Positions 10,900-44,537 of a stretch of DNA of 44,537 nucleotides are shown piece by piece. The stretch is from a virus. How positions within the stretch are numbered: position 1 is the first letter of the stretch; every line of letters starts with the position of its first letter. The position numbers were made by a program, and so were the translations under genes. The stretch is taken from positions 1 through 44,537 of the IMG/VR virus record IMGVR_UViG_3300021479_000032. One strand, 5' to 3'. Under the pieces are notes generated by a model. That model made no database searches. It worked only from the letters and a program-made list of their open reading frames with translations, and had not been told where the DNA came from.

Positions 10900-10939
10900 G
10901 CTGGTCTGTTTGTTTGAGGGTGTTTGGGAGGGATGTGTT

Positions 10940-11677
10940 ATGAGCCTTATCATCCAGTGTATCTACGCCACAAAGGACAATAAAAAGCTTCCTATCGTAA
11001 AACAGTGTATTAAGTCGCTCATGGCGACGGTGGATTTGAATAAACACCGCTGGGTAATTGTGAATAACTCGTGTGACATGGAGACGCAGGGGTATTTAGA
11101 TGCGCTTTCACATCACATGAATATCACTATTCACCACTTGCCGGAAAACGTCGGTACGGCGCGGGGGATAAATATCGGGTTGCGGACAAGGCAGCCGGGC
11201 GAAATGTGCATCAAATGCGACGATGACCTGACATGGTCGGTATCCGGGTGGGTTGAACAACTCGAAAAGTATTGCAAGGGTAATATTGGTATTTTAGGAT
11301 TGAAGCGTGACGATATTTGGCAACGGACCGACCATGAGAATTTGAATTACCGGACTAAAATGGAAGGGAAGTTGGAGATATGTCCCGATATTATGGGAAC
11401 GTGCACGGCTTATAACCCGGCGATGCTGGATAAAGTAGGACTGCTTACGCAGCCGGGTTTGTACGGATTTGACGATACAATATTCTCTGTTCGTTCAATA
11501 GCGGCGGGTTTTCGGAATGCCTTTTTGCCGCACATAAAAATTACTAATCTTGATAAGGGTGGCACAGAATACACCGAGTGGAAGAAGTGGGAGGCCGGGC
11601 GACGATTGGTTGAGGCAGGGGAATATATGGAAATGATTAAAAACGGGATAATAAGTTATTTTTATGATGGAGATTAG
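10940..11677 (+). CDS. GT-A fold (family 2-like) glycosyltransferase
   Basis: A 245-residue protein. The N-terminus is a typical GT-A Rossmann-like start (LIIQCIYATKDNKKLP, then RWVIVNNSCD), followed by the family 2 motif LPENVGTARGIN and a DxD-type metal site in IKCDDDLTW near residue 95. These bind a nucleotide-sugar and a divalent metal. The C-terminal part (GFDDTIFSVRSIAAGF) matches the acceptor-side acidic motif. ATG 10940 is preferred over an upstream TTG that lies close behind the promoter. The stop overlaps the next gene by 14 bases. It probably adds a sugar to a virion or host-surface glycan. Confidence 0.85.
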   Translation: MSLIIQCIYATKDNKKLPIVKQCIKSLMATVDLNKHRWVIVNNSCDMETQGYLDALSHHMNITIHHLPENVGTARGINIGLRTRQPGEMCIKCDDDLTWSVSGWVEQLEKYCKGNIGILGLKRDDIWQRTDHENLNYRTKMEGKLEICPDIMGTCTAYNPAMLDKVGLLTQPGLYGFDDTIFSVRSIAAGFRNAFLPHIKITNLDKGGTEYTEWKKWEAGRRLVEAGEYMEMIKNGIISYFYDGD

Positions 11678-12326
11678 TAAAACGACAACTATATTAGCTT
11701 ATACAGCAGAACCCAAAAGGTATCTTATCGAAGGAGATTCGGGCGAATACGAATTTTTAACCGAAGCGGTCGAACTGAGTAAAGATGTGCCCGGTATGTG
11801 CATAGAAATTGGCTTGCGTCGTGGATTGGGAACTAAAACCATTATTGATGCAGTGCGCCAATATTGCCCTGCTAAAATAATTGTTGCAGTCGACCCATAC
11901 GGATCAATATTGTATAAACCCCGTGACCACATGCCTGAATGCCGATTAGATTATACCAACCAGATGAAAGCTGAAACACTGTCGGCGATATGGGCGTATG
12001 TGGCAGAAAACCCGGTCAGGTTTGATTATTATCCCATGACTGACGCGGAGTATTTTGAAAGGTTTTGGGATTGCGTGCCACTATACGATGTTTTTACAAG
12101 TGAAGGTAATAAATATTCAGTAGTTCACCTTGACGGCCCGCATGGTTTAACCGAAGTAAACCATGAAATTGATTGGTTTGCAGAAAGAATGTTGCCGGGC
12201 TCTATCCTGGTAATTGATGATATTACGCCGGATTTTATACCAATCGAAAAGGTAGAAGAACACATGGGCGATAGGTTTGAGTTAGTTAAGAAGGGGATTA
12301 AAAAGGGAATATGGAGAAGAAAGTAG
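11664..12326 (+). CDS. Class I SAM-dependent methyltransferase
   Basis: A 220-residue protein (start ATG 11664, or 11667 directly after). It has the SAM-binding glycine loop in MCIEIGLRRGLGTKT, an acidic strand end IVAVDPYGS, and the motif VVHLDGPHGLTEVNHEIDWF followed by PGSILVIDDI. That is the pattern of Methyltransf_24-type O-methyltransferases acting on sugars or small acceptors. It overlaps the glycosyltransferase before it and the tiny membrane protein after it. A sugar or glycolipid substrate is likely from context; no nucleic-acid methylase motif is present. Confidence 0.82.
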   Translation: MMEISKTTTILAYTAEPKRYLIEGDSGEYEFLTEAVELSKDVPGMCIEIGLRRGLGTKTIIDAVRQYCPAKIIVAVDPYGSILYKPRDHMPECRLDYTNQMKAETLSAIWAYVAENPVRFDYYPMTDAEYFERFWDCVPLYDVFTSEGNKYSVVHLDGPHGLTEVNHEIDWFAERMLPGSILVIDDITPDFIPIEKVEEHMGDRFELVKKGIKKGIWRRK

Positions 12327-12442
12327 AAAATAAGTCCGCATGGCATAAGTTTAATAGGTATCTTAATGACCATATTGGCGTTATAATGGTTTGGTATTTT
12401 TTGGTTCAGTTAATACACTTCATTTTAAAATGCTTAAAGTAA
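12311..12442 (+). CDS. Tiny membrane protein inside the glycan block
   Basis: A 43-residue frame overlapping both neighbours (16 bases upstream, 13 bases downstream). It has a charged N-terminus (MEKKVENKSAWHKF) and one hydrophobic helix (IGVIMVWYFLVQLIHFI). It fills the only gap in an otherwise overlapping run of genes, which argues for real coding. It could anchor the modification enzymes at the membrane. No family recognised. Confidence 0.45.
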   Translation: MEKKVENKSAWHKFNRYLNDHIGVIMVWYFLVQLIHFILKCLK

Positions 12443-13080
12443 TCACCGTAATTTCAAATACCGAAGAACCCGGATTTAAACTATTAGGCGAATCGTTAGT
12501 AAAACATGGTTGGGATACTACCGCATTAGCTGTTCAATGGCGTGGATTTGGAACAAAACTTATTGCAATTTACCGATACTTACAAGACAATTTAGAAATA
12601 GACCGTTTCATTTTTTGCGACGGACACGATGTTGTGGCGCTCGGCCCTCCAGTTGAATTTGAAAGAAATTTGGAACACCCTGATAAAATGTTAGTATCAG
12701 CAGAGCGCGGATGCTGGCCACCGACAATGCAACAATATGCAAGTTATTACGAACCATTAGAAGCACACGGATGGAACTATGTCAACAGTGGGCTGTATTA
12801 TACCCCTACAAGTATTTTTATGGCTATGATGGAGCGTAACATGCCAAAATATGAATCTGACGATCAGGAATGGCTGGCAATGAACTTTTTATTTAATGAC
12901 GAGGCTGAAATACGAATGGACAGGAACTGTAACGTTTTTCAATCATATAGTTTCGTTCAGGATGATGATTATATTTACCGGGAAGGAGTTTTGGTAAATG
13001 CAAAAACCTGTACAACACCATGCTTTGTGCATGGGAATGGTCGCACAAACATGGAAAAAGTTTATAATTTAATAAAATGA
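12430..13080 (+). CDS. Glycosyltransferase of the PLOD / procollagen glycosyltransferase-like type
   Basis: A 216-residue protein. Features of the PLOD-type glycosyltransferase domain are IDRFIFCDGHDVV (acidic metal-binding site), an SAERGCWPP segment, YVNSGLYYTPTSIF and the acidic SDDQEWLAMNFLF, then DRNCNVFQS. Such domains occur in eukaryotic collagen glycosyltransferases and in large viruses and phages, where they glycosylate proteins. The longer frame back to 12391 lies inside the tiny membrane gene, so I use ATG 12430. The stop overlaps the next gene by 4 bases. It is the best candidate here for modifying a virion protein. Confidence 0.8.
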   Translation: MLKVITVISNTEEPGFKLLGESLVKHGWDTTALAVQWRGFGTKLIAIYRYLQDNLEIDRFIFCDGHDVVALGPPVEFERNLEHPDKMLVSAERGCWPPTMQQYASYYEPLEAHGWNYVNSGLYYTPTSIFMAMMERNMPKYESDDQEWLAMNFLFNDEAEIRMDRNCNVFQSYSFVQDDDYIYREGVLVNAKTCTTPCFVHGNGRTNMEKVYNLIK

Positions 13081-13781
13081 CCTTAGAAACTTTAAAATCA
13101 GAGTGGCATGATACCGAGGAATATCATAAGCACATAAATGAGCTATTCGCTCAGTTGGTTGACGCCGACCCGGAATTAAAAGCACATCGGGATTTTGTGC
13201 AAAACAATGTATTCGGCTTTGGGGAGCGATCATTTTGGTGGTTGTGGAAGCTTATTTTTGAGGGACTGCCCGACAACGCCAGGATGCTTGAAATAGGGCT
13301 ATTTAAGGGTGCGACGGTATCTCTATGGAGATTGTTAAGCCCGACCGCAGATATCGCCGCCATAAGCCCCATGGATGGCGCCGGGCTTGAATGGAAAGAC
13401 GATGACTATCGGCAGCATGTAAAAACCATACACGAGCGCTTTAATCAATCTTATCCCAAAATTTTCGAGGGATTGTCTACCGACAGAGGTATAAAGGCGA
13501 TGTTTGGTATGGAATATCGCTACGGTTTGGATTTGCTATACATTGACGGCTCACATGAGTATGCTGATGTAAAGTTAGATTTTGGATGGTATGCACCGTA
13601 TGTAAAATCGGGTGGCTTTTTGGTTGTTGACGACTGCTGCTGTGACTTACATGAACCATTTGGTTACTTTCAAGGGATATCTGATGTTCAAAAAGCATTC
13701 GACGAATATATGTTAGAGCATAGTGACAAGTGGGAATTTGTATTTAATGTAGTTCACCTCCGGGTAATGAGAAAACTATGA
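13077..13781 (+). CDS. Class I SAM-dependent methyltransferase (second copy)
   Basis: A 234-residue protein with RMLEIGLFKGATVSLWRLL (SAM loop, about residues 68-86), then GLDLLYIDGSHEYADVKLDF and KSGGFLVVDDC. This is the same Methyltransf_24-like pattern as the gene at 11664, but the sequences are too different for a recent duplication. A Cys run (DDCCCD) follows the last acidic strand. In some phage and bacterial glycan clusters enzymes of this kind cap or decorate sugars. It overlaps both neighbours by 4 bases. Confidence 0.82.
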   Translation: MTLETLKSEWHDTEEYHKHINELFAQLVDADPELKAHRDFVQNNVFGFGERSFWWLWKLIFEGLPDNARMLEIGLFKGATVSLWRLLSPTADIAAISPMDGAGLEWKDDDYRQHVKTIHERFNQSYPKIFEGLSTDRGIKAMFGMEYRYGLDLLYIDGSHEYADVKLDFGWYAPYVKSGGFLVVDDCCCDLHEPFGYFQGISDVQKAFDEYMLEHSDKWEFVFNVVHLRVMRKL

Positions 13782-14749
13782 GCATAAAACGCATAATATA
13801 TTTCGATCATTGGCAAAGCGCAACAGAATACTACCGATTAATGCCACTGGACTATATCACAAACGAGTCGTTTACCATTACAAGGTCAACGGAACGGGAG
13901 ATACAGAGCCACCTGCTAAACCGATACGACGTAGTTATTATTTCCAGGCCCTCATCGGAAGCCCATTTGAACCTTATAAGGCTGGCTAAAGACTTGCATA
14001 TGAAGGTAATTGGCGATTATGATGATGATACCCTGCATGTGCCCGAAACCAACCCAATGTATGGCACTTATGAGAACGATAAGCGACACACATTGAAATG
14101 TTTAGCGTTATTGGATGAGATTTGGGTAGCTACAGAGGGTATAAAGCAGTCATTCCGATTATTCAATAAGAATATTCATGTGATACCAAATTCGCATAAT
14201 GACACGGTGTTCCCGGTGGAGCGCAAGATGCCATTCGGGGCAAAGAAGCGCATCATGTGGCGTGGCGGCGGAAGTCATATTGGAGATATTTATCAGCCCG
14301 GCACGGCAGAATGGATCGTGAAAACAATAAATAGCAATAAGAAGTGGGATTTTTACTGGCTTGGTCAGAAGTTTGAATGGATAGAGTACAGGGTTAAGCA
14401 GGGCAACTTCTTCCATAACCCAGGTGGCAGCACGGTACAGTTTTACAAAATGATACACGAAATGAACCCGCAGGTATTTTGGTATCCATTGACGGATAAT
14501 TTGTTCAACCGCAGCAAGAGTGCGTGTTCGTGGCTGGAGGCAACCTACTCGGGTGCGGCGTATTTCGGAAAGGTGGCGTTCCCGGAATTTCAAAAGCCGG
14601 GCATAAAACAATTGGCCGAACTGCCGTATATGCTTAAACACCCCTACGAATTGGAAAAAATGAACACTGAAAGTTGGGAATTTATTTCCGATGAATTACT
14701 TTTGAGTAAGATAAATTTATTAAGAGAACAAAGATTATTGGCTATATGA
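13778..14749 (+). CDS. GT-B fold glycosyltransferase (GT4-like)
   Basis: A 323-residue protein. It opens with a Rossmann-type strand (KRIIYFDHWQSATEYYR), continues with DVVIISRPSS, then VIGDYDDDTLHVPETNP, a motif often seen in phage and bacterial GT4-like enzymes, then EIWVATEGIKQSFR and HVIPNSHND. The C-terminal half contains WRGGGSHIGD and the family-typical acidic end (FNRSKSACSWLEATYSG). It would transfer a sugar from a nucleotide-sugar donor. Its stop overlaps the start of the GroES-like gene, linking the block to the virion operon. Confidence 0.78.
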   Translation: MSIKRIIYFDHWQSATEYYRLMPLDYITNESFTITRSTEREIQSHLLNRYDVVIISRPSSEAHLNLIRLAKDLHMKVIGDYDDDTLHVPETNPMYGTYENDKRHTLKCLALLDEIWVATEGIKQSFRLFNKNIHVIPNSHNDTVFPVERKMPFGAKKRIMWRGGGSHIGDIYQPGTAEWIVKTINSNKKWDFYWLGQKFEWIEYRVKQGNFFHNPGGSTVQFYKMIHEMNPQVFWYPLTDNLFNRSKSACSWLEATYSGAAYFGKVAFPEFQKPGIKQLAELPYMLKHPYELEKMNTESWEFISDELLLSKINLLREQRLLAI

Positions 14750-15684
14750 CACCATCCACCGGAAATATCCTTGTAAAATTCGACCATGACAGGTCATCAA
14801 CCCTTGTAAAACAAGACAACGGGCTATTTGTTCCCGAGCGTTACGTAATAGAGGAGGGCGACGAAGACGCAGATACCGCATGGGGTGTAACCACAGACCG
14901 TAAGATGATAAACCCACAGGTGATTGATATTCTTTCGGGAGAACATAAGAGCAAACGGGCATTTGTACATTATGGTGCTTTTGAGGTGTGTAAATGGGTT
15001 GATGAAGAATCGGCGGTAATACCCGAAAAAATGATACTATTCTTTGTTGACCCGATACAATGCGTTTCGGGGACATATTTAGGGGAAGAAGTATTTGGGG
15101 AACTGCCAAAAACGGCCAGCGGTATATATCTTACCCCGCAACTGGAAACAAAAGAGGGGGTGAAGGTGTGCATCACGCACGTGCCAGATAACGCACACCC
15201 AGTGGTACAGGTCGGTACGGTGGTTATAACGGTTGACGCGTTTCAATATGACCTGATATACGAAGGGAAGAAATATATTAAAGTAGACCAGCGCGAAATT
15301 GTGGGAGTTGAAACAAGCGATGGATATGTACCCGTTGGCAAAACTATTCTGGTCGAATACCTGCCGGATGCCGCATTGGCAGAACGGGTCGCCGAAAATG
15401 ATAAACGCCGGGCACAGCGCGATTATATTGATAAGCACTTTATTCATATATCGGAAGCCTACACCAAGGGGCTTGACCCGGCGTACCTTGATGTACCGGA
15501 GCCAAAAACAACGTATGCCAGGGTGCTGTCGGTTGGTGAGGATGTGCAGCAGGTGGAAACAGGAGATAAGGTGCTTGTTCAGCGTAATTACGGGTGTTTA
15601 TTGCCAAATAAGCAATGGATCATCAATGCAGATATAGCGTTGGCTGTAATTAAAGAGAATATTCTGATACCCGTTGGGGAGTAA
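14746..15684 (+). CDS. Protein with three tandem GroES-like folds
   Basis: A 312-residue protein. I read three co-chaperonin-like units: residues about 5-92 (GNILVKFDHD, GLFVPE, VIDILSG), 93-190 (KMILFFVDP, SGIYLTP, VVQVGTVVI, KYIKVDQREIVGV) and 196-303 (VGKTILVEYLPD, YARVLSVGEDV, VETGDKVLVQRNYG, WIINADIALAVI). Each follows the GroES order: entry strand, mobile loop, small acidic/Gly turn, VGD strand, final DI-x-AV. Known phage co-chaperonins (T4 gp31) are single units that form heptamers with GroEL and help fold the capsid protein. A covalent triple is unusual. Its place just before packaging and capsid genes fits capsid folding. The assignment rests on pattern, not on a search. Confidence 0.65.
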   Translation: MTPSTGNILVKFDHDRSSTLVKQDNGLFVPERYVIEEGDEDADTAWGVTTDRKMINPQVIDILSGEHKSKRAFVHYGAFEVCKWVDEESAVIPEKMILFFVDPIQCVSGTYLGEEVFGELPKTASGIYLTPQLETKEGVKVCITHVPDNAHPVVQVGTVVITVDAFQYDLIYEGKKYIKVDQREIVGVETSDGYVPVGKTILVEYLPDAALAERVAENDKRRAQRDYIDKHFIHISEAYTKGLDPAYLDVPEPKTTYARVLSVGEDVQQVETGDKVLVQRNYGCLLPNKQWIINADIALAVIKENILIPVGE

Positions 15685-15686
15685 CT

Positions 15687-16376
15687 ATGCGCCGCAAATT
15701 TGAAACATACCCAGAATTAATGGCAGAGTACAGGAGGCTCAAATGTGAACTCGGCGCGATAAAAAATAAAAACGAAAGGTTAAAAAAGAAATACGAAATA
15801 ATAGAACAAAAGGCGGAGTCATTTGACAACATTCATAACGAGTATGTTTTTATAGACAAAAAACCGGATTATTTTTTTTCTTTTTCCGGGCACGCGCTGT
15901 TCAGGCAGTTTTATCTTCGCAATGGACTGACTGCCGCCCAAGCTGAATTATTAATAATTATCAGCTATAAGGGGGTGTTTTTGAGAGGTGATTTTAGGTT
16001 TTATAATAGGGATTACTTTAAGCTATCTGTTATAAAATTAATAGAAACCCTAATTGAGCAGCGTTACGTTATGAATATCATGGTTCCGGGCAAAGCGCAC
16101 AAAAAAAGGAATGGGTATGTGCTGACGCAAAAAGGAAAAGACCTTGAGGCTGATTACGAACAGTACTATGATAAAAAAATGGATGAGTTAAGAAGTGGGC
16201 GCATCACACCCGCTAATTTTCAGGATGGGGCGTATTTCAGGAAGGTTTTTGTTAGCAGGTACGAAAGGCGCATAGAGCAGGGCGGCGGTATGCTTATAAG
16301 GGGCGGTATCATGACAGGATGGAAGGAGTCGCCACCGATTTGGAAGCATGCGGATGAAATGGATAAAGGAGAATAA
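15687..16376 (+). CDS. Coiled-coil plus winged-helix-like protein
   Basis: A 229-residue protein starting 2 bases after the GroES-like gene. Residues 10-50 form a charged coiled coil (ELGAIKNKNERLKKKYEIIEQ). Residues about 70-160 look like a MarR-type winged helix (LTAAQAELLIII, KLSVIKLIETLIEQRYV, then the wing KRNGYVLTQKGKDLEADYEQ). The C-terminal tail is basic and Gly-rich. It could be a late regulator or DNA-binding packaging factor; small terminase subunits often pair a DNA-binding domain with a coiled coil, and it lies two genes before the large terminase. Neither role is proven. Confidence 0.6.
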   Translation: MRRKFETYPELMAEYRRLKCELGAIKNKNERLKKKYEIIEQKAESFDNIHNEYVFIDKKPDYFFSFSGHALFRQFYLRNGLTAAQAELLIIISYKGVFLRGDFRFYNRDYFKLSVIKLIETLIEQRYVMNIMVPGKAHKKRNGYVLTQKGKDLEADYEQYYDKKMDELRSGRITPANFQDGAYFRKVFVSRYERRIEQGGGMLIRGGIMTGWKESPPIWKHADEMDKGE

Positions 16377-35392: not shown

Positions 35393-36795
35393 TGGGAGTA
35401 GGTCATCTCAATATTGGTGAAGGAATTGGCGATGCCAAAGTGTTCAACCCCATGCCGGCCATACAGCAGTATGGGCAGATACTCGCTCAAAAACAAGCCA
35501 AGCACGAAGCGGAAGTAAGGGCGTTGGGCGATGAATTAGCAAAGGGATATGACCCGAACGGGTTGCGGAACGATGCTGACAAATTAGAGTATGCCAAGAG
35601 GTATAAGGGGATTAAGGAAGATGCTATTGCCGCAGAAAATGAAAAAGATGCAACCAAAAAGGCAATGGCGCTATCAGGTATCCGGCAACGGTTAACAGAT
35701 TTGTCAGCTTTTTCTACCGGCAGTAAAACACTTGACAAATTTGAGCGGGAGGCCGCTAAAGAACACGCCCTGCATCCTTATGTTTACGATGACAGCACTT
35801 CAAAGAAATTGTTAGACCAGCGCAACAGAACGTGGGATCATCCCGACAATGTAAAAGATTGGAGTGGTATAGAAAGAGGGGTAGACCCGGCCAAAGAGGA
35901 GGTGAAGTATGACAAGTGGCGGGACGAGGTTTTAAAGCATCACCCGGCCACCTATGGAACGGAAAAAATTTCATACGGCCAAAATGTATTTGGCAGGAAA
36001 ACAGCGACGGGAACACAGGAAAGGGTAATACCCTATCAGGACGCGCTTGAAATGCACCTGCATGCCGCAACCGCTGATATGGACTATCAAAAGCACCTGC
36101 AAAATAAATACCCCGAACTGCAAGACCCCAACCCGCAAAAACAACTGGCTATGCGGGTAGCACAGGATATGAAAGACCACGGCGATGGTGACGGCATACA
36201 CGACAGGCCAAAGGTTAAGAATTACGAAGATGTAGCACCGGATAAGTTCTATGAACATTATAATTATGAACTTAACCACCCGAAAGTATCGCCGACAACG
36301 GCGCAGAGTAATACGCCAACATATAGGCAGGATCTGGTCGGACGCATACTAAGTGGCTCGGCAGGCAGTGGCGAAGAACTAAAGGCTAAAATAGCTGCTG
36401 ACCCGGCCTATGATGGTGAATTGAAAATAGGTGGGGGAACCGGAAAGGCGGTAAAAGGGCATTTGTTATTCACCATACCGCCAAAGAGGGTTTGGAAGCA
36501 AAAAACAGCGACAGATGATGCGGGTTGGTATCAGACAGCACCACAAAGAGAAATTTGGATAGACCCGAGCGCACCCAATGCGAAAATAAAGCTGAATGAA
36601 ATGATAAATGAGTTAACAGGCGAGAAAGTAGATATTTCAGCGCTGCAAACACCTGGCGGTAAAAAACATATTGGCGTGGGGCAGCACATGCAAGGGGCAA
36701 AAACAACACCGGATGATTTTAATAAACAATGGTCAAAACTACCAAAGGGCGCTACTTTAGTTGGCCCGGATGGTGTGACATATACTAAGAAGTAA
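35392..36795 (+). CDS. Hypothetical internal virion/cargo protein
   Basis: A 467-residue protein. The first 120 residues are helical and charged (YGQILAQKQAKHEAEVRALGD). The middle is rich in His, Asp and Lys with no clear domain (HGDGDGIHDRPK). The C-terminal third has beta features (LKIGGGTGKAVKGHLLFTIP, GWYQTAPQREIWIDPS). It lies between a Q-rich ejection protein and the giant protein, sharing a base or overlapping with each, so all three are probably co-packaged. No enzyme motif recognised. Confidence 0.62.
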   Translation: MGVGHLNIGEGIGDAKVFNPMPAIQQYGQILAQKQAKHEAEVRALGDELAKGYDPNGLRNDADKLEYAKRYKGIKEDAIAAENEKDATKKAMALSGIRQRLTDLSAFSTGSKTLDKFEREAAKEHALHPYVYDDSTSKKLLDQRNRTWDHPDNVKDWSGIERGVDPAKEEVKYDKWRDEVLKHHPATYGTEKISYGQNVFGRKTATGTQERVIPYQDALEMHLHAATADMDYQKHLQNKYPELQDPNPQKQLAMRVAQDMKDHGDGDGIHDRPKVKNYEDVAPDKFYEHYNYELNHPKVSPTTAQSNTPTYRQDLVGRILSGSAGSGEELKAKIAADPAYDGELKIGGGTGKAVKGHLLFTIPPKRVWKQKTATDDAGWYQTAPQREIWIDPSAPNAKIKLNEMINELTGEKVDISALQTPGGKKHIGVGQHMQGAKTTPDDFNKQWSKLPKGATLVGPDGVTYTKK

Positions 36796-39700
36796 TGGGA
36801 TACCCTGACGTAAAATGGACACCACCACAAGATGCGGTTCCTGTTGAATCAAAAACAATATGGAAGCCGCCCACTGATGCTGTACCCGTAAAAAAAGACA
36901 GCGGGGCAGGCTCCCCGCACGATTTTACGCATGGTTACAAACCTACTGCCGAAGATTTAAAAGTAAAACAGGGCTGGACAGACTTGCAGGGTGGTTTGGA
37001 GAAGTCTGGCGGTGGCTTAGAGAGTTCCCTCGGTTTCCGAAAACCTGATATTAAGCCAATGAAGCAGGTTGATTATTCATCCTATATCCCGTCCAAACAT
37101 ACACAACAACAAGAGCAAGCCGTTACACAATACGACAGGAGCAAGCATAAACCAACTACGCTTTTAAACAAACAACAGGATGCTAATTTCAGGCAAAATC
37201 AAATTCCAGTAAAGGGGCACGGGCTGGAAAATGTGATTGGTGTTGAGCGACATAAAAACTCATGGGATAATGTTGACTTATTGCCAAATGTTGTTTTGGG
37301 GGGACTTGAAAAAGACGCAGCCCACGCAGCTAAGTTTTTAGGTGATAAGGTGTTTGGCGACCCACAGGGTCACTTAGCTAAAGATGCCATAAGCAATGCC
37401 GCCTTAAAACTTGAAGGGTGGGGACAGGACAAAGAAAATAAAGCGGATCAATTTTCACTACCCGACACGGGAGCTGGCGGTGTGGTAAAAACAGCCACTT
37501 CGTTTGTGCCCACTGTTATTGAACTGGCATTAACACCCGAACTGAATATTGCTAAGATTGGTAAATTAGGCGAAGTACTGACTAAGTACGGTGGCAAATA
37601 CGCCCCAAAGGTGGTAAATATGGCGGTTGGTAAATTTCCGGTGCTTATGGGGGTAAACGGACTTACAGGCGGCTATACCGCAGCCAAAGAAGCGGGAGCG
37701 ACCGACTATGATGCTACAAAAGCAGGCCTTGTAAATTCAGCCAAAGAATATGGTAAGGGATTACTGTTTGAGGGCGCTGGTGCGGCAGCGGGGAAGGTGT
37801 CAAAAATTGGCGCTAAATTTTTAGAGGATGCCGGGTGGATGAAGGGCGGAGAGATAGTAAAGGGCGCACAAAAAGCAATTTTACATGCCGCAGCACAAGC
37901 TACCGCATTTTCCGCTATTCCAATAATAACCAACGCGATGCAAGGCAAATCAACGTCGCTGGATGAAATACGAAACAACGCAATTCTTGGCGGCATAACC
38001 GGGCTGTTTCATGGCGATGGCAAAGATGACACCCCGTCTGATGGTGCAGCGAAGGAGATAATGCAGAGAAGTCCGCTCATTGACTTGCATAACTTCATGG
38101 CGGCGGATATGGATGGAATAAAGATGGCTCATGCGCTTAATGCCACACCAACCGACCTACACATGATAGCCGCCACACATGCTGAACGGGCATTTCAAGA
38201 AAGCAATCCCGAAGCAAAGGCAGAAGCAATTTCGCAATCATCAATAAACGGAAAATTAGCCTCGGTCAAGTCTGTGACACAGGCTATTTTAAAGGACAAG
38301 GATGCCGTTATTGCTTCACTACCAGACGATATTGACAAGCAACCCATTATCGACAAAATAAACGAAGTCCATAAAGCATTCGACCCTATTGAGCAGCAAA
38401 AAACAGTCTTAGCCGATAAGATACAAAAGCTACAGTCTGAACCAACTACAGGCGACATCGTTAAGGACAAGGAAAACAAGGTAGAGTTACAGGATTTAAA
38501 CAAGCAATTGGACGATATTGTAAAAAAGCAGTACGAGGATAAAAAGAATGAACAAATTCAGCCAAATAAGGAAGTACATGCTGAACAATCGGGAGATGGG
38601 ATAACCAGCCCGGAATCGACCATTAACCCAACTAATGAATCAACTGAAAATTCACAAATAAAAACCACAGAAAATGAAACCACCAAAAAAGGCGCCGAAG
38701 ATGAAGAAACCGGCGCCGCCGAAAAAGATGGCGAACAAGGGCTGGCCGCCAAAGAAGAAGTAGGTAAAGCGGGGGATGCGAAAGCGGAACCCGAAACTAC
38801 TATTGCCGACCAAATTAAAAAACATTTTGGTAATGTGAATGAATCTACAAAGCCGGAAGGGTCTAAGTTTGCCGGTAAAAAGGAATGGGATGCTACCGAT
38901 AAAAATGGGTATAAAATATCTGTTAAACCCAATCAAGACGGGTATGAGGTATTTTTAGGTAAGCCGGGAAAGGATGTGGGGAATGTGAATAGCTTTAATC
39001 AGATTGAGAGCTGGTTCCCCGAAAGCGAAAAAGAGTTAAGCAAAAGCATAGATGACGCGAAGTCACTGATTGATAAAATTGAACAAAAAGGCAGTTTGGG
39101 GCCAGGATTAGCCAAGCTACCCGTTGCCGAACACGCCGAATTAAACGGACTATTAAAGGAGGATGGTATTAACATAAGCCATTTAAAAGATGTCAACGAC
39201 ACACAACGAAACGAAAGCGGCGACCAAGATACGCAAGCTGCAACTAATGCGGAAACTGTACAACAACCCGAAAATGACGGCACTGGAAATGCTGGAAAAG
39301 ATAGACCGGGCGAAAGCCCTAAAGGAGGCGAAAGCACAAAAAGCAAAACAGGCTTTAAGAAACCGGATAGCGAGTCAACAGGGGGCAAAGAAGTAAAGAA
39401 AACTATCCTTACCAAACGCGCATACGAGGGTGAGGTGCAGCCCGAAGTAAAAAAATATCTGGAAGACAAGGGACTTAAACGAGCGTCCTTTAGTCAGGAG
39501 GAACGGTCAAAACAAGCTACCGACTTTATCAATAAATTCGGCGATGAACCCGCATACCATGCGGTAGATTCGGGCGATATTGATGGTGGCTTGGCTGCAT
39601 CCGTGTTGGCGCAATTGCAAATACGCAACAGTGAGGCTATAGAAGATTTACCGGAAGATAGCGAAAGGCGCGACGAACTTGCAAAAAAACACGCAGACCT

Positions 39701-41843
39701 GATCGCCCTAATGGAAAAGAGAGGGTATTTTAGCGGTGAGTTTATCGGACAACTTGCCCATGAATATCAAAATAAAGATTTGAACTTTGCTTCAATCAAA
39801 AGACAGGTCGAAAAACTAACAAAAAAAACACTAACCAAAGAACAGGAATCTAAAATAAAAGAAACAGTAGCCGAAAATGAAAGGTTAAAAACCGCCCTAA
39901 AAGATGCCGAAGCTAAATTGATAGAAGAAACCGACAAGGCATTCAGGGCAGGTGAAGAATCTGTTAAAAACGAGACAAAAGCACAAAAAGCTAAACGGAT
40001 AGCCGATAAAATACGCGCCGGCAAGATACATAGGCCAGGAATATTCAGCAATGCAACACCCGCATCGTTAGCATGGGATACGGCAGTAGAGGTTGTGGCA
40101 AAATCAGTAGAGGCTGGTGGTAAAATAGCGGATGCGATAGAATTGGGACTTGAACATATTCGCAGCACGAGTTGGTATAAAGGGCTGTCTGACAAAAAGA
40201 AAACAGAAGCCGAAACAACATTTAAGCGGTATCATAATGACAATTCAGGAAGCGCTGATTTATCAGACCTTCAATCCCGGTTTGCAGACAAAACAGATAA
40301 TAAATTCAACCCATCAGAAGCCCGTGATATTTGGGGTTACATGAAAGAAAATTACCTGAATAACGGCACCTCATATGCCGATGCACTCTCAAAAACATCA
40401 CAGGACTTAGGACTCTCGTGGAGGCAGGTCAGCGAGGCCGTTGTGACACCTAAACTAAAACGAATTTCGGATGAGATGTGGAAGCGAAACTCTGAACTTG
40501 CACGGAACAGGTCAGCGATAAAGAATTGGATTGGTCAGCAGGAGTCATCTGCACCTGTACGCGCGTGGAGAAAGATATCGGGCCTATTGCGGGGCATAGC
40601 TACATTCGGTCATGGTCACATATTTTTGGGAACACACGCTGGTATGACATTCTTTAATCCGTCTACATGGAGCAAGACTATACCGGCGTTCTTCCGTGGT
40701 TTTAAGTTAGCCTATGGCACAGAGGCTGCATACGAACGCAACATGCAGGAACTAAAGAATGAACCCAACTATCTTATCGCTCAACGTGCCGGGCTAAAGA
40801 ATGACCCCGACCGTATAAATGTAGAGGAGTTTCAAAAAAGTCAGCAGTATTTAGGCCGATTAGGACATGTAGGGGAGCGGGGTTTTAACACGATAAAGGT
40901 GCTTCGCCAGCATCTGTTTGACTATCACTTTAACAACCTGTCGGCAGCCGAGCGAGACGACCCGGAAGTGGCTAAAAGTATAGCTGATTTGGTAAATCTT
41001 GCAACGGGGGCGACAACTCTTAAGCTTCCGGCATGGGTTAATGAGGTGTCTTTTGCAGGTGGCATGGAAGCGGCAAGGTGGGAAAAGCTACTAAAAAGCC
41101 CTGCAAAATCAGCAGAAACCTTAGCTAAGGTGATACGCGGCAATCCGACTCCGGCAGAAAAAGTATTTGCCAAAGTATGGGCGCGTCGGGTAGGCGAACA
41201 AGTAGCTACCTATACTTCACTATTGGCAATAAACGCAGCTATTAATAATTATTTTTATCCTAATGATAAAAAAAGATTATTTGATCCATCTGACCCTAAT
41301 TGGTGGAAATTTAAGTTTGGTAAAACAACCATTGATCCTACGTCGGGAATGCGAAGTACGGCGTCTTTCCTGTATGAACTATCTACAATCCCATTTAAGA
41401 GTAAAGCTGAAAACTACGGAAAAAGCGGATTGGAGGCAGAAGCAAGCGCGGCAGAGGGGTATGGTCGGGGGAAACTTGCGCCTTTGTATGCCACTATATC
41501 CGACTTTGTGGACAACAAAGATTTTAACCGTAATGTTATGCCTAAATTCCCGGTAAAAGCACTTAACTTTAGGAATGATAGCCCAACTAAGGGGCATCAT
41601 AAATTAACGTGGATTGAATATGGTACACAAAAACTACCTTTGCCCGTAGCAGAAGGGTTGGGTGTGTTTTATCAATCAGCATTAGACCACGGAGCAAATA
41701 AGAAACACCTTAACTCAGTTATGGATGGTATTTTATCGGGTGTTATTTCAGGAACAACTGGCTTTAGAGTTGGCGAGTACAAAGAAACAAAAGGCAGAAT
41801 GAAAAAGACTACCTTAGACCCATCCATGCAGAAAAACAAATGA
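36795..41843 (+). CDS. Giant virion/ejection protein (polyvalent-protein-like), 1682 residues
   Basis: It opens with two short repeats of the form WxPPxDAVPV (residues about 7-32). Residues 230-420 hold Gly/Ala-rich, partly hydrophobic helices (VVLGGLEKDAAHAAKFLG, GLLFEGAGAAAGKV), likely membrane-interacting. Residues 590-690 are an acidic, Glu/Thr/Lys-rich linker. Residues about 890-1060 contain charged helices (FGDEPAYHAVDSGDIDGG, then a long coiled coil) resembling large polyvalent phage proteins. The C-terminal 400 residues (WRKISGLLRGIATFGHGHIF, TFFNPSTW) are a well-ordered helical domain. It is probably ejected with DNA. It lacks the DxDGD motif expected for a virion RNA polymerase, so I do not assign that activity. 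The stop overlaps the start of the peptide gene. Confidence 0.75.
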   Translation: MGYPDVKWTPPQDAVPVESKTIWKPPTDAVPVKKDSGAGSPHDFTHGYKPTAEDLKVKQGWTDLQGGLEKSGGGLESSLGFRKPDIKPMKQVDYSSYIPSKHTQQQEQAVTQYDRSKHKPTTLLNKQQDANFRQNQIPVKGHGLENVIGVERHKNSWDNVDLLPNVVLGGLEKDAAHAAKFLGDKVFGDPQGHLAKDAISNAALKLEGWGQDKENKADQFSLPDTGAGGVVKTATSFVPTVIELALTPELNIAKIGKLGEVLTKYGGKYAPKVVNMAVGKFPVLMGVNGLTGGYTAAKEAGATDYDATKAGLVNSAKEYGKGLLFEGAGAAAGKVSKIGAKFLEDAGWMKGGEIVKGAQKAILHAAAQATAFSAIPIITNAMQGKSTSLDEIRNNAILGGITGLFHGDGKDDTPSDGAAKEIMQRSPLIDLHNFMAADMDGIKMAHALNATPTDLHMIAATHAERAFQESNPEAKAEAISQSSINGKLASVKSVTQAILKDKDAVIASLPDDIDKQPIIDKINEVHKAFDPIEQQKTVLADKIQKLQSEPTTGDIVKDKENKVELQDLNKQLDDIVKKQYEDKKNEQIQPNKEVHAEQSGDGITSPESTINPTNESTENSQIKTTENETTKKGAEDEETGAAEKDGEQGLAAKEEVGKAGDAKAEPETTIADQIKKHFGNVNESTKPEGSKFAGKKEWDATDKNGYKISVKPNQDGYEVFLGKPGKDVGNVNSFNQIESWFPESEKELSKSIDDAKSLIDKIEQKGSLGPGLAKLPVAEHAELNGLLKEDGINISHLKDVNDTQRNESGDQDTQAATNAETVQQPENDGTGNAGKDRPGESPKGGESTKSKTGFKKPDSESTGGKEVKKTILTKRAYEGEVQPEVKKYLEDKGLKRASFSQEERSKQATDFINKFGDEPAYHAVDSGDIDGGLAASVLAQLQIRNSEAIEDLPEDSERRDELAKKHADLIALMEKRGYFSGEFIGQLAHEYQNKDLNFASIKRQVEKLTKKTLTKEQESKIKETVAENERLKTALKDAEAKLIEETDKAFRAGEESVKNETKAQKAKRIADKIRAGKIHRPGIFSNATPASLAWDTAVEVVAKSVEAGGKIADAIELGLEHIRSTSWYKGLSDKKKTEAETTFKRYHNDNSGSADLSDLQSRFADKTDNKFNPSEARDIWGYMKENYLNNGTSYADALSKTSQDLGLSWRQVSEAVVTPKLKRISDEMWKRNSELARNRSAIKNWIGQQESSAPVRAWRKISGLLRGIATFGHGHIFLGTHAGMTFFNPSTWSKTIPAFFRGFKLAYGTEAAYERNMQELKNEPNYLIAQRAGLKNDPDRINVEEFQKSQQYLGRLGHVGERGFNTIKVLRQHLFDYHFNNLSAAERDDPEVAKSIADLVNLATGATTLKLPAWVNEVSFAGGMEAARWEKLLKSPAKSAETLAKVIRGNPTPAEKVFAKVWARRVGEQVATYTSLLAINAAINNYFYPNDKKRLFDPSDPNWWKFKFGKTTIDPTSGMRSTASFLYELSTIPFKSKAENYGKSGLEAEASAAEGYGRGKLAPLYATISDFVDNKDFNRNVMPKFPVKALNFRNDSPTKGHHKLTWIEYGTQKLPLPVAEGLGVFYQSALDHGANKKHLNSVMDGILSGVISGTTGFRVGEYKETKGRMKKTTLDPSMQKNK

Positions 41844-42001
41844 AACTAACCATTGAAACCGCCGCCGAAGAATCGGTGAAACAATATCCCAGCGGCGAGG
41901 TGGTTGTTAAGGTTGTAAAAGAAGATTTTGAACAGTTGAAAAATATTATATTGGAGGCGATTGAAAATGGAAATAAAATTTGTACACAACCTACCGCTTG
42001 A
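41840..42001 (+). CDS. 53-residue peptide, possible substrate/precursor of the downstream enzymes
   Basis: A 53-residue frame starting at an ATG that overlaps the stop of the giant gene and ending inside the GNAT gene (35-base overlap). It is acidic and amphipathic (IETAAEESVKQYPSGEVV, EDFEQLKNIILEAIENG) with a distinct short tail KICTQPTA. Leader-helix plus small tail is the layout of ribosomal-peptide precursors, and the three genes after it encode the enzyme classes that process such peptides. It could equally be a small structural or regulatory protein. Coding is plausible from the coupling; the precursor role is a hypothesis. Confidence 0.5.
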   Translation: MKLTIETAAEESVKQYPSGEVVVKVVKEDFEQLKNIILEAIENGNKICTQPTA

Positions 42002-42464
42002 ACAATCATTGATTTTTGAAGAAATTTATGATGAAAACCTGCAAATGGACTTGGAAGAAAAACTGGAGCTTAAAGATGATGGGGCTGAATTTATTTTTAT
42101 GATAAACGGGGAAAGTGGCGAACTTATAGGCGAAACTTATTTTATCCCGTTGGATGTTTTTGAGGGTGAAGAACCTGATCCGCTACAACCCGATGAGGGT
42201 TTAACGTCTTATTTTGGTAAGGGGTTGATTTATTGTTATTCAACAACAATATTACCAAAACACCAACAGAAAGGTTTTGGTAAGTTATTAAAAGCATATT
42301 TATACGGGTATGTTTACGCCAAGGGGTATAAAGGCAGTATAGCACACGCTAAAGCGGGGGCGTCTATTAAATTAAATACGTATTTTGGGGCTGAAATAGT
42401 TGGTGAATTTGAGAACTGGTATCAAACCGGAATTACCCATTATCTTTATTTGAAGTGGTTTTAG
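41967..42464 (+). CDS. GNAT-family acyltransferase
   Basis: A 165-residue protein with the acetyl-CoA-binding motif A of GNAT enzymes, STTILPKHQQKGFGKLLKAYL (Q-x-x-G-x-G/A, residues 100-106). A following helix/strand (GSIAHAKAGASIKLNTYFGAEIVGEF) ends as in motif B. The acidic N-terminal half (residues 20-80) is longer than in minimal GNATs. ATG 41967 is preferred to the upstream TTG at 41961. It would transfer an acyl group to an amine, for example on a peptide or amino acid. It overlaps the C39-like gene by 10 bases. Confidence 0.82.
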   Translation: MEIKFVHNLPLEQSLIFEEIYDENLQMDLEEKLELKDDGAEFIFMINGESGELIGETYFIPLDVFEGEEPDPLQPDEGLTSYFGKGLIYCYSTTILPKHQQKGFGKLLKAYLYGYVYAKGYKGSIAHAKAGASIKLNTYFGAEIVGEFENWYQTGITHYLYLKWF

Positions 42465-42856
42465 AAAGGCAGAAAAAAGATTACGACTGTGGTGTATATG
42501 CTGTTAATTTTTTAATGGAATTGCATGGTATATATAATTTTGGGATTGATTTTTTAGAGCAAGAACTTAAAACTACCGCTGACAACGGAACAACACATGA
42601 GGATATTTCAAACTGGTTTAATAATGATGTTTTAAGCGGGTATGATAGTGATATTAATAAAATAAAGGTACCGGCATTGGTCAATTACCAATATGATGGT
42701 GAGGGTCATTATGGGGTTGTTTTATGTATAACAAAAAAGATGGTAACGATATATAATCCCGCTATTGGAGATATCGAAATAGTAGATAAGGGACAATTTA
42801 TTTTAAGTTGGTATAGTGAACGTTACGGGAATAAATGGTATTTGTCACTGAAATGA
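42455..42856 (+). CDS. C39-like papain-fold cysteine peptidase
   Basis: A 133-residue protein starting at GTG 42455 inside the GNAT gene end. The core matches C39 peptidases: QKKDYDCGVYAVNFLM with a catalytic Cys at residue 12 and oxyanion Gln at 6, HYGVVLCI with His85, and TIYNPAIGD with Asn101 in the usual Asp/Asn place. C39 domains cut leader peptides after a double Gly in bacteriocin export, but this protein has no transporter. It may process a peptide, act in the virion, or cut cell-wall peptides. Its stop overlaps the ATP-grasp start. Confidence 0.72.
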   Translation: MVLERQKKDYDCGVYAVNFLMELHGIYNFGIDFLEQELKTTADNGTTHEDISNWFNNDVLSGYDSDINKIKVPALVNYQYDGEGHYGVVLCITKKMVTIYNPAIGDIEIVDKGQFILSWYSERYGNKWYLSLK

Positions 42857-44118
42857 TGGAAGAAGTAAACCTTAAAGAGAAAACAATATGCGTGTATGAT
42901 GAGCGGCTTTGTGTTTCATTGGCACAGCGGCTTGCCCGTGATTACGGTCGTGTTTTATACTTTAGTGAGTGGGCTTGTGCGTTCCCGTATAAAAAAGACA
43001 GCCTTGTTGGCTACGGTATAGAGGGTATTGAACGTATAAAATACTTTTGGCCGTATCTCGATGAAATTGATGTTTTTTGTTTTCCATTTATTTACAGACC
43101 GGATTTACAGGAATATTTAAGAAGCATAGGCAAACAGGTGTGGGGGTCAGGATGGGGGCAAGAAATAGAACTTGACAGGGCTGATACGAATGGAGATTTA
43201 CCTAAATTTGGGCTTCCTCAACCATTCATAACTGTCGTAAATGGAGTTGACAATCTGCGTGAGCATCTTTCATCAGTAAAGAATAAATATATTAAGGTTA
43301 GCCAATGGCGCGGTGACAATGAAACATGGAAGCATGAAGATATAAAAACATCTACATCTAAATTAGACGAACTGTCAGTTGAACTTGGCCCAGAAAAGGA
43401 TGATTTTGAATTTATAATTGAGGATAAAATAGACGGGGAAGAGTGGGGCTATGACGGATTTTCCGTGAATGGTGAGTTTCCCAAAACTACACTTTTTGGT
43501 ATTGAAATTAAGGATTTAGGCTACTGTGCCCATGTTAAAAAACATAAGGATATATCTCCATTGATAACCGACTACCTTGATGCTATTGCTCCAACACTTA
43601 AAGCTAACGACTACGCTAATTTTTTTCATTCTGAAAACAGAATTACACCTAAAAAGGTATCTTTCCCTATTGATATAACATGCCGGATTGGTTTACCACC
43701 GGGGGAACTATATATGGAAATGTGTTCAAACCTACCAGAAATCATTTGGTATGGTAGTATCGGCAAGCTTAAAGAGCCTGAATTTGAAGCTAAATATGGG
43801 ATTCAAGTAAATATATATTCGAGCAGAAGTGATGATAAATGGAATGAGATACGCTTCCCAAAGGAGATTGACAGGTGGGTGAAATTGCGCTCGTGTATGA
43901 AAAAAAATGACACTTGGTATATTGTGCCTGGAATCGAGCAACTTTTTGAGATAGGTGCAGTTGTGGCTATCGGAAATACAATGGATGAATGTATTGAAAA
44001 AGTAAAAGAGTATGCCAAACAAATTAAAGGGCATTTGATTGATAAAAAAATAGGCTCAATTGAGGATATGAAGGGGTGTATAGAGAATGGTAAGAAAATT
44101 GGTATTAATTTCGATTAA
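42853..44118 (+). CDS. ATP-grasp ligase (PurD-like)
   Basis: A 421-residue protein (ATG 42853 in an ATGA overlap; an upstream ATG at 42835 is also in frame). Features of phage PurD-like ATP-grasp enzymes: GSGWGQEIELDR (about 98-109), YIKVSQWRGDNETW (ATP-binding Lys, 146-160), FIIEDKIDGEEWGYDGFSV (188-205), GIEIKDLGY (216-224), HSENRI and FPIDITCRIGLPPGE (259-285) with the metal-binding acidic residues. The C-terminus (AVVAIGNTMDECIEKVKEYAK) is the usual closing subdomain. It would activate a carboxylate with ATP and join it to an amine, for example in a peptide bond. The true substrate is unknown. A TATATTTA element follows the gene. Confidence 0.8.
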   Translation: MMEEVNLKEKTICVYDERLCVSLAQRLARDYGRVLYFSEWACAFPYKKDSLVGYGIEGIERIKYFWPYLDEIDVFCFPFIYRPDLQEYLRSIGKQVWGSGWGQEIELDRADTNGDLPKFGLPQPFITVVNGVDNLREHLSSVKNKYIKVSQWRGDNETWKHEDIKTSTSKLDELSVELGPEKDDFEFIIEDKIDGEEWGYDGFSVNGEFPKTTLFGIEIKDLGYCAHVKKHKDISPLITDYLDAIAPTLKANDYANFFHSENRITPKKVSFPIDITCRIGLPPGELYMEMCSNLPEIIWYGSIGKLKEPEFEAKYGIQVNIYSSRSDDKWNEIRFPKEIDRWVKLRSCMKKNDTWYIVPGIEQLFEIGAVVAIGNTMDECIEKVKEYAKQIKGHLIDKKIGSIEDMKGCIENGKKIGINFD

Positions 44119-44149: not shown

Positions 44150-44537
44150 ATGGAAATCCTGCTCAATAGCGCCAATGATATTTACACCGTAACACTTGAT
44201 GTTACAGGTAAAACCCTGACCATATCCGGGTGTAATAATTTCCCGCTTGACGTAAGTTCATTAAAGGAGATTTATAATACCACACATGCCGGAAATATCG
44301 GGCTGCCTGCCGCTAATCAGTTCGCATGGTTCAGGTCAAATGGACTGCCTATTTTTGTTTGGGGATTATCCTCTTTTCCGGCAGGTTCAGATAATGGTGA
44401 CACCCTGAATGTGATGCTTGATATACCCCGGACACAATCAATACTATCCCTACAGCAAAAACAGGCATCGGCATCGGCTGGAACTCCCGGAACGCTCATG
44501 ACCGCCGAAGTACCATCGGGTACTATAAATGGAACAA
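44150..44537 (+). CDS. Hypothetical protein, 3' end cut by window edge
   Basis: A frame of 129 complete codons running off the window end. ATG 44150 follows a 31-base AT-rich gap with a near-consensus TATATTTA. It is beta-rich with no obvious enzyme motif (EILLNSANDIYTVTLDVTG, GNIGLPAANQFAWFRSNG, LPIFVWGLSSFPAGSDNG). If the ends are joined, the frame closes after TVIR with a TAA at window bases 12-14, giving 133 residues, a normal size. It may be a small virion protein or part of the enzyme cassette. Confidence 0.65.
   Translation, partial: MEILLNSANDIYTVTLDVTGKTLTISGCNNFPLDVSSLKEIYNTTHAGNIGLPAANQFAWFRSNGLPIFVWGLSSFPAGSDNGDTLNVMLDIPRTQSILSLQQKQASASAGTPGTLMTAEVPSGTINGT

Follow-up and report, generated by a model that had tools for sequence, protein, structure and literature searches.

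A PurD-like ATP-grasp ligase family encoded among the virion genes of tailed phages, with candidate peptide partners

In the LysW/LysX/LysK amino-group carrier system, a LysX-type ligase aminoacylates LysW, a carrier with a zinc ribbon and a C-terminal Glu. Fusions of GNAT and C39-type domains with ATP-grasp neighbors were reportedly put forward by Iyer et al. in 2009 as predicted peptide-modification systems. PMC10318531, citing Iyer et al. 2009, describes C39 relatives of the DUF3335 family fused to GNATs. Microviridin clusters combine ATP-grasp and GNAT enzymes, sometimes with a C39 peptidase (PMC13039773), LUZ24-like phages carry an ATP-grasp/amidoligase/amidotransferase cluster (PMC3890496), and other phage ATP-grasps belong to R2K or LUZ24-type families (PMC4431377, PMC7824862, PMC3890496). 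We analyzed a four-gene cassette in the window, that is, the whole of IMG/VR record IMGVR_UViG_3300021479_000032, a 44,537-base fragment of a podovirus-like phage with a terminase that resembles (25% identity) the terminases encoded by Flavobacterium and Cellulophaga phages. At 41840-44118 on the plus strand, four open reading frames (ORFs) with head-to-tail overlaps encode a 53-residue small protein (pep53), a GNAT acyltransferase, a C39-like peptidase and an ATP-grasp protein, as in an original prediction made from the sequence alone. The reading we favor, with about even confidence, is of a late-expressed amide ligase from a phage-only, PurD-derived family that would act on a virion protein or on a peptide of the phage.

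With the ATP-grasp protein as sole query, viral contigs, genome contigs and isolated phages yielded no match, and plasmids no convincing one. What opened the family was a DNA pattern written by hand to fit the ATP-binding motif KxxxxRGDxETW; it recovered 24 viral contigs, most of them encoding ATP-grasp relatives with 28 to 45% identity. A second DNA pattern and alignment scans extended the family to 42 contigs: the window itself, a further 37 from viruses and four from metagenome bins. No match was detected in 50,697 isolated-phage records at tblastn sensitivity with three different members as queries. Neither Pfam nor PHROGs held a model for the family, and the window protein alone had no Pfam match. 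The family is apparently virus-only and previously unlisted.

A family profile searched against Protein Data Bank (PDB) sequences matched PurD with an E value of 2.4e-10. An AlphaFold2 model built with 37 family members had a predicted local distance difference test score of 94.1, compared with 33 for a single-sequence AlphaFold prediction, and displayed a complete PurD-type fold. The top Foldseek matches were GAR synthetases, with E values down to 1e-19, and L-amino acid ligases (3vot and BacD, 3vmm) were close behind; LAL_C2 was the commonest weak Pfam match within the family. Residues K154, R159, E163 and E203 were invariant, and D207, E224, K226, E267, D280 and R284 were nearly so. The protein has both the fold and the ATP and metal residues (K154, E203, E267, D280 and R284) of the ATP-grasp superfamily, and these conserved residues and the predicted fold point to a working-type enzyme, PurD-like as had been proposed. 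Homology to PurD (2yw2, 1vkz and 2qk4) extended over the full length, with the same three-part fold (Foldseek E value of ~1e-19). However, identity was ~12 to 16%, the PurD signature RxGDPE and the phosphate loop GxGGRE were absent from all 37 rows, the E-x-N metal pair was replaced by D-x-[TC], and the genes lay in a virion-gene context. A PurD function was rejected owing to the loss of the signature in every row, and the retention of fold and homology without signature or loop therefore indicated that the ligase derives from PurD but has a changed substrate. The ligase of contig L026 (5142-7481) contains a LAGLIDADG_3 intein (3.6e-6) exactly after the metal-binding DxxxR motif (DPTIR); conserved catalytic centers are a typical placement of inteins. 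An extra N-terminal domain of ~100 residues (GFxxx..FLxRxxA...GLHS) was observed in the ligases of L050, L051, L055, L065 and L068, and the two that were tested had no Pfam match.

Nearly every informative ATP-grasp locus was situated in a virion-morphogenesis module, and this held across unrelated tailed phages. At twelve loci the ligase followed a portal-like protein of ~770 residues (named from its position, with no library match), while a P22-type portal adjoined the ligase in L024, L036 and L056/L067 and was confirmed in L024 by PF16510 (2.5e-87). Large internal-protein-type genes preceded the ligase in the window, L040, L042, L045, L050, L055 and L068. The ligase followed the major head protein in L034 and lay in a baseplate module in L052 (phrog_6, 1.6e-56, among the neighbors), and terminase was also found among the neighbors of family members. 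This gene position suggests that the ligase is expressed late, with the virion genes, and the tie to virion modules leaves standing the earlier suggestion that a virion protein could be tagged. At L023 and L046 the ligase is flanked by glycosyltransferase and methyltransferase genes; a specific link with these was rejected, as Methyltransf_24 was equally common in related phages that lack the ligase.

All short ORFs (20 to 60 residues) at all ATP-grasp loci were scanned with a threshold of at least 33% Asp plus Glu. The scan gave 14 matches, all of them immediately 5' of an ATP-grasp gene. After deduplication, all eight acidic ORFs (21 to 42 residues) were within 140 nucleotides upstream of the ligase, an interval containing 0.85% of short ORFs; the resulting P value of ~1e-17 reflects a very large effect and is not a clean probability, as the threshold and interval were fixed after the first cases had been seen. 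Two pairs of these ORFs had proportions of nonsynonymous differences (pN) of 0.12 to 0.15 and of synonymous differences (pS) of 0.82 to 0.84, indicating purifying selection. A PE[GE]W start was common to several, the C termini were D/E in some (L014, L018, L022, L023, L031 and L049) and FMK in others, and none contained a zinc ribbon. In the relatives of the window that have pep53, an acidic ORF of 40 to 42 residues (...VPTEGID..DDELWSDDETS.EFMK; pN of 0.15, pS of 0.82) occupied the place of the GNAT and C39 genes. Among 31 lineages, there were none in which an acidic ORF occurred together with a C39, M28-like or HExxE gene (P = 0.016 in an exploratory test). Position, coupling and conservation make the acidic peptide the best candidate for the ligase substrate in the phages that encode one. 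These tiny ORFs are missed by normal gene calling. A further small ORF (CxxC...C...GC, zinc-ribbon-like, ending in ...WNE and with a Lar-type resemblance) separates the acidic ORF from the ligase gene in L022 (2080-2320) and L031.

The GNAT gene of the window has its own Shine-Dalgarno sequence, GGAGG, nine bases before ATG 41967, and encodes an acetyl-CoA loop of QQKGFG. Taken alone, the protein was below the Pfam cutoff (Acetyltransf_1, 0.013), but its predicted identity was backed by a 29% identical homologue in L026 (7491-7994) that matched Acetyltransf_1 at 1.9e-9. The C39-like protein matched PF03412 with an E value of 9.1e-10 and had Q6, C12, H85 and N101, including the Cys, His and Asn that had been predicted; its homologue in L026 (7978-8418) was 33% identical. 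Between these two proteins Q6, D9-Y10-x-C12-G13 and G84-H85-Y86-G87 were invariant, and N101 was replaced by E in L026, so that the oxyanion Gln, catalytic Cys and His of C39 peptidases are in place and the third residue varies. The protein stands alone rather than being fused to an ABC transporter, and no double-glycine substrate site was found in the adjacent peptides. In L026 both homologues are encoded directly downstream of the ATP-grasp gene, giving the same trio in another order. No GNAT or C39 gene was detected in the full records tested of other ATP-grasp phages, and an IMG/VR scan for further C39 relatives returned L026 only; both genes accompany the ligase in 2 of ~31 informative lineages. 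The original prediction had treated ligase, GNAT, peptidase and small peptide as a unit, one at odds with ATP-grasp homologues that occur freely. Most homologues did lack the GNAT and C39 genes, and it is the trio that recurs, whereas the four-gene unit is not conserved. In a tree, the sisters of the window were L012 and L025, which have neither gene (99% support), and L026 was not a sister. The trio was either ancestral and then lost or assembled twice; both histories favor a functional link, and the three enzymes are probably linked in function.

Homologues of pep53 (55 residues, M[KR][LV]TIET...P[SN]GE) were found in L040/L041/L043 and L042, just before the ATP-grasp region as in the window. 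Alignment of the window and L042 proteins gave a score of 47, a value reached by 0 of 2,000 shuffles (mean of 23), and comparison of the L040 and L042 genes gave nonsynonymous and synonymous substitution rates of 0.20 and 1.47, indicating purifying selection. These phages are the two nearest ATP-grasp lineages and lack the GNAT and C39 genes, and pep53 was not found in cassette-less relatives of the window; it therefore travels with the ligase and not with the GNAT and C39 genes. The small frame is thus conserved as predicted, but as what appears to be a companion of the ligase in this lineage rather than a dedicated substrate of a four-gene set. The GNAT gene starts 35 nucleotides before the end of pep53 and shares its last 12 codons; the KICTQPTA tail, which had been singled out earlier, is this overlap, is not conserved in the homologues and was rejected as a feature.

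The C-terminal third of the 1,682-residue protein encoded before the cassette had 63% identity over 562 residues with four viral contigs (L002-L005). Five further contigs contained more distant relatives, and the L010 and L011 homologues were in the same size class. The cassette was found in none of these contigs (four close and five distant), and a sensitive ATP-grasp profile gave no match in the full records of seven cassette-less relatives, with 4 of 4 positive controls matched. In L005 a homologue (32%) of the gene at 44150 lies 46 bp behind the large protein gene, an empty site, while the spot is taken by an HNH gene on the opposite strand in L007 and by another gene in L009. In L012, L025 and L029 the ATP-grasp gene is followed by a homologue of the 44150 gene. 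The G+C content fell from ~45% to 36% across the cassette. Because relatives with the same large protein have an empty site or other cargo, the cassette is a cargo insertion between two virion-type genes; it is not placed after the last virion gene, as had been thought, but between the gene for a large virion/ejection-type protein and the virion-type gene from 44150 on, from which 31 nucleotides separate it. Translation of pep53 is coupled to that of the virion gene before it. The ATP-grasp start that agrees with relatives is ATG 42853/42856, which creates a 4-nucleotide ATGA overlap with the C39 gene and is probably the true start.

Two other gene families filled the slot beside the ligase. 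A compact protein of 191 to 193 residues (L044, 3354-3935; L045, 6236-6811) had HxD, LLDNxxG, EExG, D and WHxD motifs like those of M20/M28 dizinc peptidases. A family of nine sequences of 120 to 150 residues (L013, 4923-5300; L046, 6223-6615; L050, L051, L055, L056, L064, L065 and L038) had an invariant HExxE...D...H...E and looks metal binding. Both are putative peptidases; neither had a database match, PDB profile searches of both were empty, and their peptidase character is accordingly motif based.

Of the described systems, the ATP-grasp/GNAT/papain-like peptidase clusters reportedly predicted by Iyer et al. in 2009 follow the same logic of ligase, GNAT and C39-type peptidase; here the genes for all three enzymes were linked repeatedly, though only in the window and L026. 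The phage set differs from those clusters in its PurD-like ligase, its separate proteins, its location in phage virion modules and the minority status of the trio, and we read it as a new variant among such systems. Like the LUZ24-like cluster, it combines a phage-encoded ATP-grasp with amide-chemistry neighbors, but that cluster is in an early gene region and has a 291-residue ATP-grasp, Amidoligase_2 and COOH-NH2_lig. A small acidic protein encoded beside an ATP-grasp ligase, joined in two phages by the compact M20/M28-like-motif protein, resembles the LysW/LysX/LysK arrangement; however, the acidic peptides have 21 to 42 residues and no zinc ribbon, the ligase is PurD-like and not RimK/LysX-like, and we claim no membership. 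In the literature searched, with partial coverage, there was no PurD-like virion-linked family with acidic micro-ORFs, and an earlier description may exist.

We favor an amide ligase acting in virion production because the ATP-grasp protein is complete and has conserved ATP and metal residues, the neighbors are virion genes, the trio occurs in a second, nonsister phage, acidic micro-ORFs precede the ligase, other putative hydrolases fill the adjacent slot and the L026 intein sits at the DxxxR active-site motif. From these features we infer the chemistry, substrate and timing as follows. The ligase would activate a carboxylate by forming an acyl phosphate and then link it through an amide bond to an amine of a virion protein or of a peptide that the phage encodes; in many phages the likely acceptor is the very acidic peptide whose gene lies directly upstream. 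The window and L026 lack this peptide and have two added enzymes; the GNAT would acylate an amine of the ligase product, and the C39-like peptidase would trim, release or transfer it. Several observations weigh against this account: the trio comes from two phages, neither of which has the acidic ORF; in 5 of 8 acidic-ORF lineages that ORF also follows the portal-like gene; and a promoter search gave chance-level sites only, leaving late expression to rest on gene position. A narrower version, which we regard as possible rather than probable, has the virus-only ligase aminoacylating or peptide-extending a dedicated acidic carrier of 21 to 42 residues during virion assembly, with interchangeable hydrolases (C39 plus GNAT, M20/M28-like or HExxE) replacing or processing the carrier elsewhere; peptide-carrier chemistry would then be attached to virus particle formation. 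Should this sizeable ligase family, which has no listing in Pfam or PHROGs and no match among isolated phages, turn out to add amino acids or peptides to a capsid component or a viral peptide, it would represent covalent particle decoration by ATP-grasp chemistry. The acidic micropeptides are the immediate candidate substrate.

The proximity of L-amino acid ligases in the Foldseek results and the LAL_C2 matches would also suit a ligase that makes a small metabolite or dipeptide of use to the phage in the cell, with the GNAT and C39 proteins modifying or salvaging it and the virion-gene site a tolerated cargo spot, consistent with the empty or otherwise occupied site in L002-L005, L007 and L009. 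We consider this rather unlikely, as it does not account for placement in virion modules in nearly all lineages and in varied submodules (portal, ejection, head and baseplate) or for the coupling to conserved acidic peptides. Modification of host proteins, after injection or late, for takeover or lysis timing, has been proposed for R2K ATP-grasps and Rac-type GNATs (PMC7824862, PMC4431377), and the adjoining large, likely injected protein and the extra N-terminal domain of five ligases would fit such a role; takeover genes are not typically found in late modules, the ligase belongs to the PurD and not the R2K type, and no host target is indicated, making this improbable. The least likely alternative, to which we give very little credence, is a graspetide pathway in which the ligase cross-links an acidic precursor, the GNAT acetylates it and C39 removes the leader. 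The enzyme types are those of microviridin clusters (C39 in classes II/III; PMC13039773), and the conserved 40-residue peptide offers Ser/Thr and Asp/Glu (VPTEGID..DDELWSDDETS). Unlike MvdC, MvdD and MvdB of the microviridin system, however, the cassette has one ligase, best matched by PurD, instead of two of the RimK type; there is no adjacent transporter; and neither a PFFARFL leader nor a GG cleavage site was present in pep53, its relatives or the acidic peptides tested. Lys is missing from most of the acidic peptides, Ser/Thr acceptors are scarce or absent in several, and the acidic ORF never accompanies GNAT/C39. The microviridin likeness drawn in the original prediction was rejected as membership on these grounds.

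Table 1. Features of the cassette and its borders in the window
Feature	Position	Strand	Remarks
1682-aa virion protein, inferred large internal/ejection type	36795..41843	+	left border of insertion site
pep53, 53-aa small protein	41840..42001	+	ATG overlaps stop of 1682-aa gene; homologues in relatives
GNAT-fold acyltransferase, 165 aa	41967..42464	+	ATG start; weak Acetyltransf_1, L026 homologue
Stand-alone C39-like (papain-fold) cysteine peptidase, 133 aa	42455..42856	+	GTG start; PF03412
PurD-like ATP-grasp ligase, 427 aa	42835..44118	+	family profile, AlphaFold2 model, Foldseek
Virion-type gene, runs off record	44150..44536	+	right border of insertion site

Outside the cassette, the region at 10910-16376 of the window, just upstream of the terminase, encodes a GT2 glycosyltransferase, a PLOD-type glycosyltransferase, two Methyltransf_24 proteins and a phrog_7162 glycosyltransferase, and is likely a glycan-decoration set; Methyltransf_24 was also present in relatives of the window without the ATP-grasp gene. 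The distant relatives L010 (11451-12989) and L011 encode a tail-fiber-like protein with long collagen-like GxSG repeats. Downstream of the ligase in L063 and L059, a conserved ORF of 53 to 54 residues starts inside the end of the ligase gene, and its product ends in SYQWWDWDCLQGRVPN in L063.

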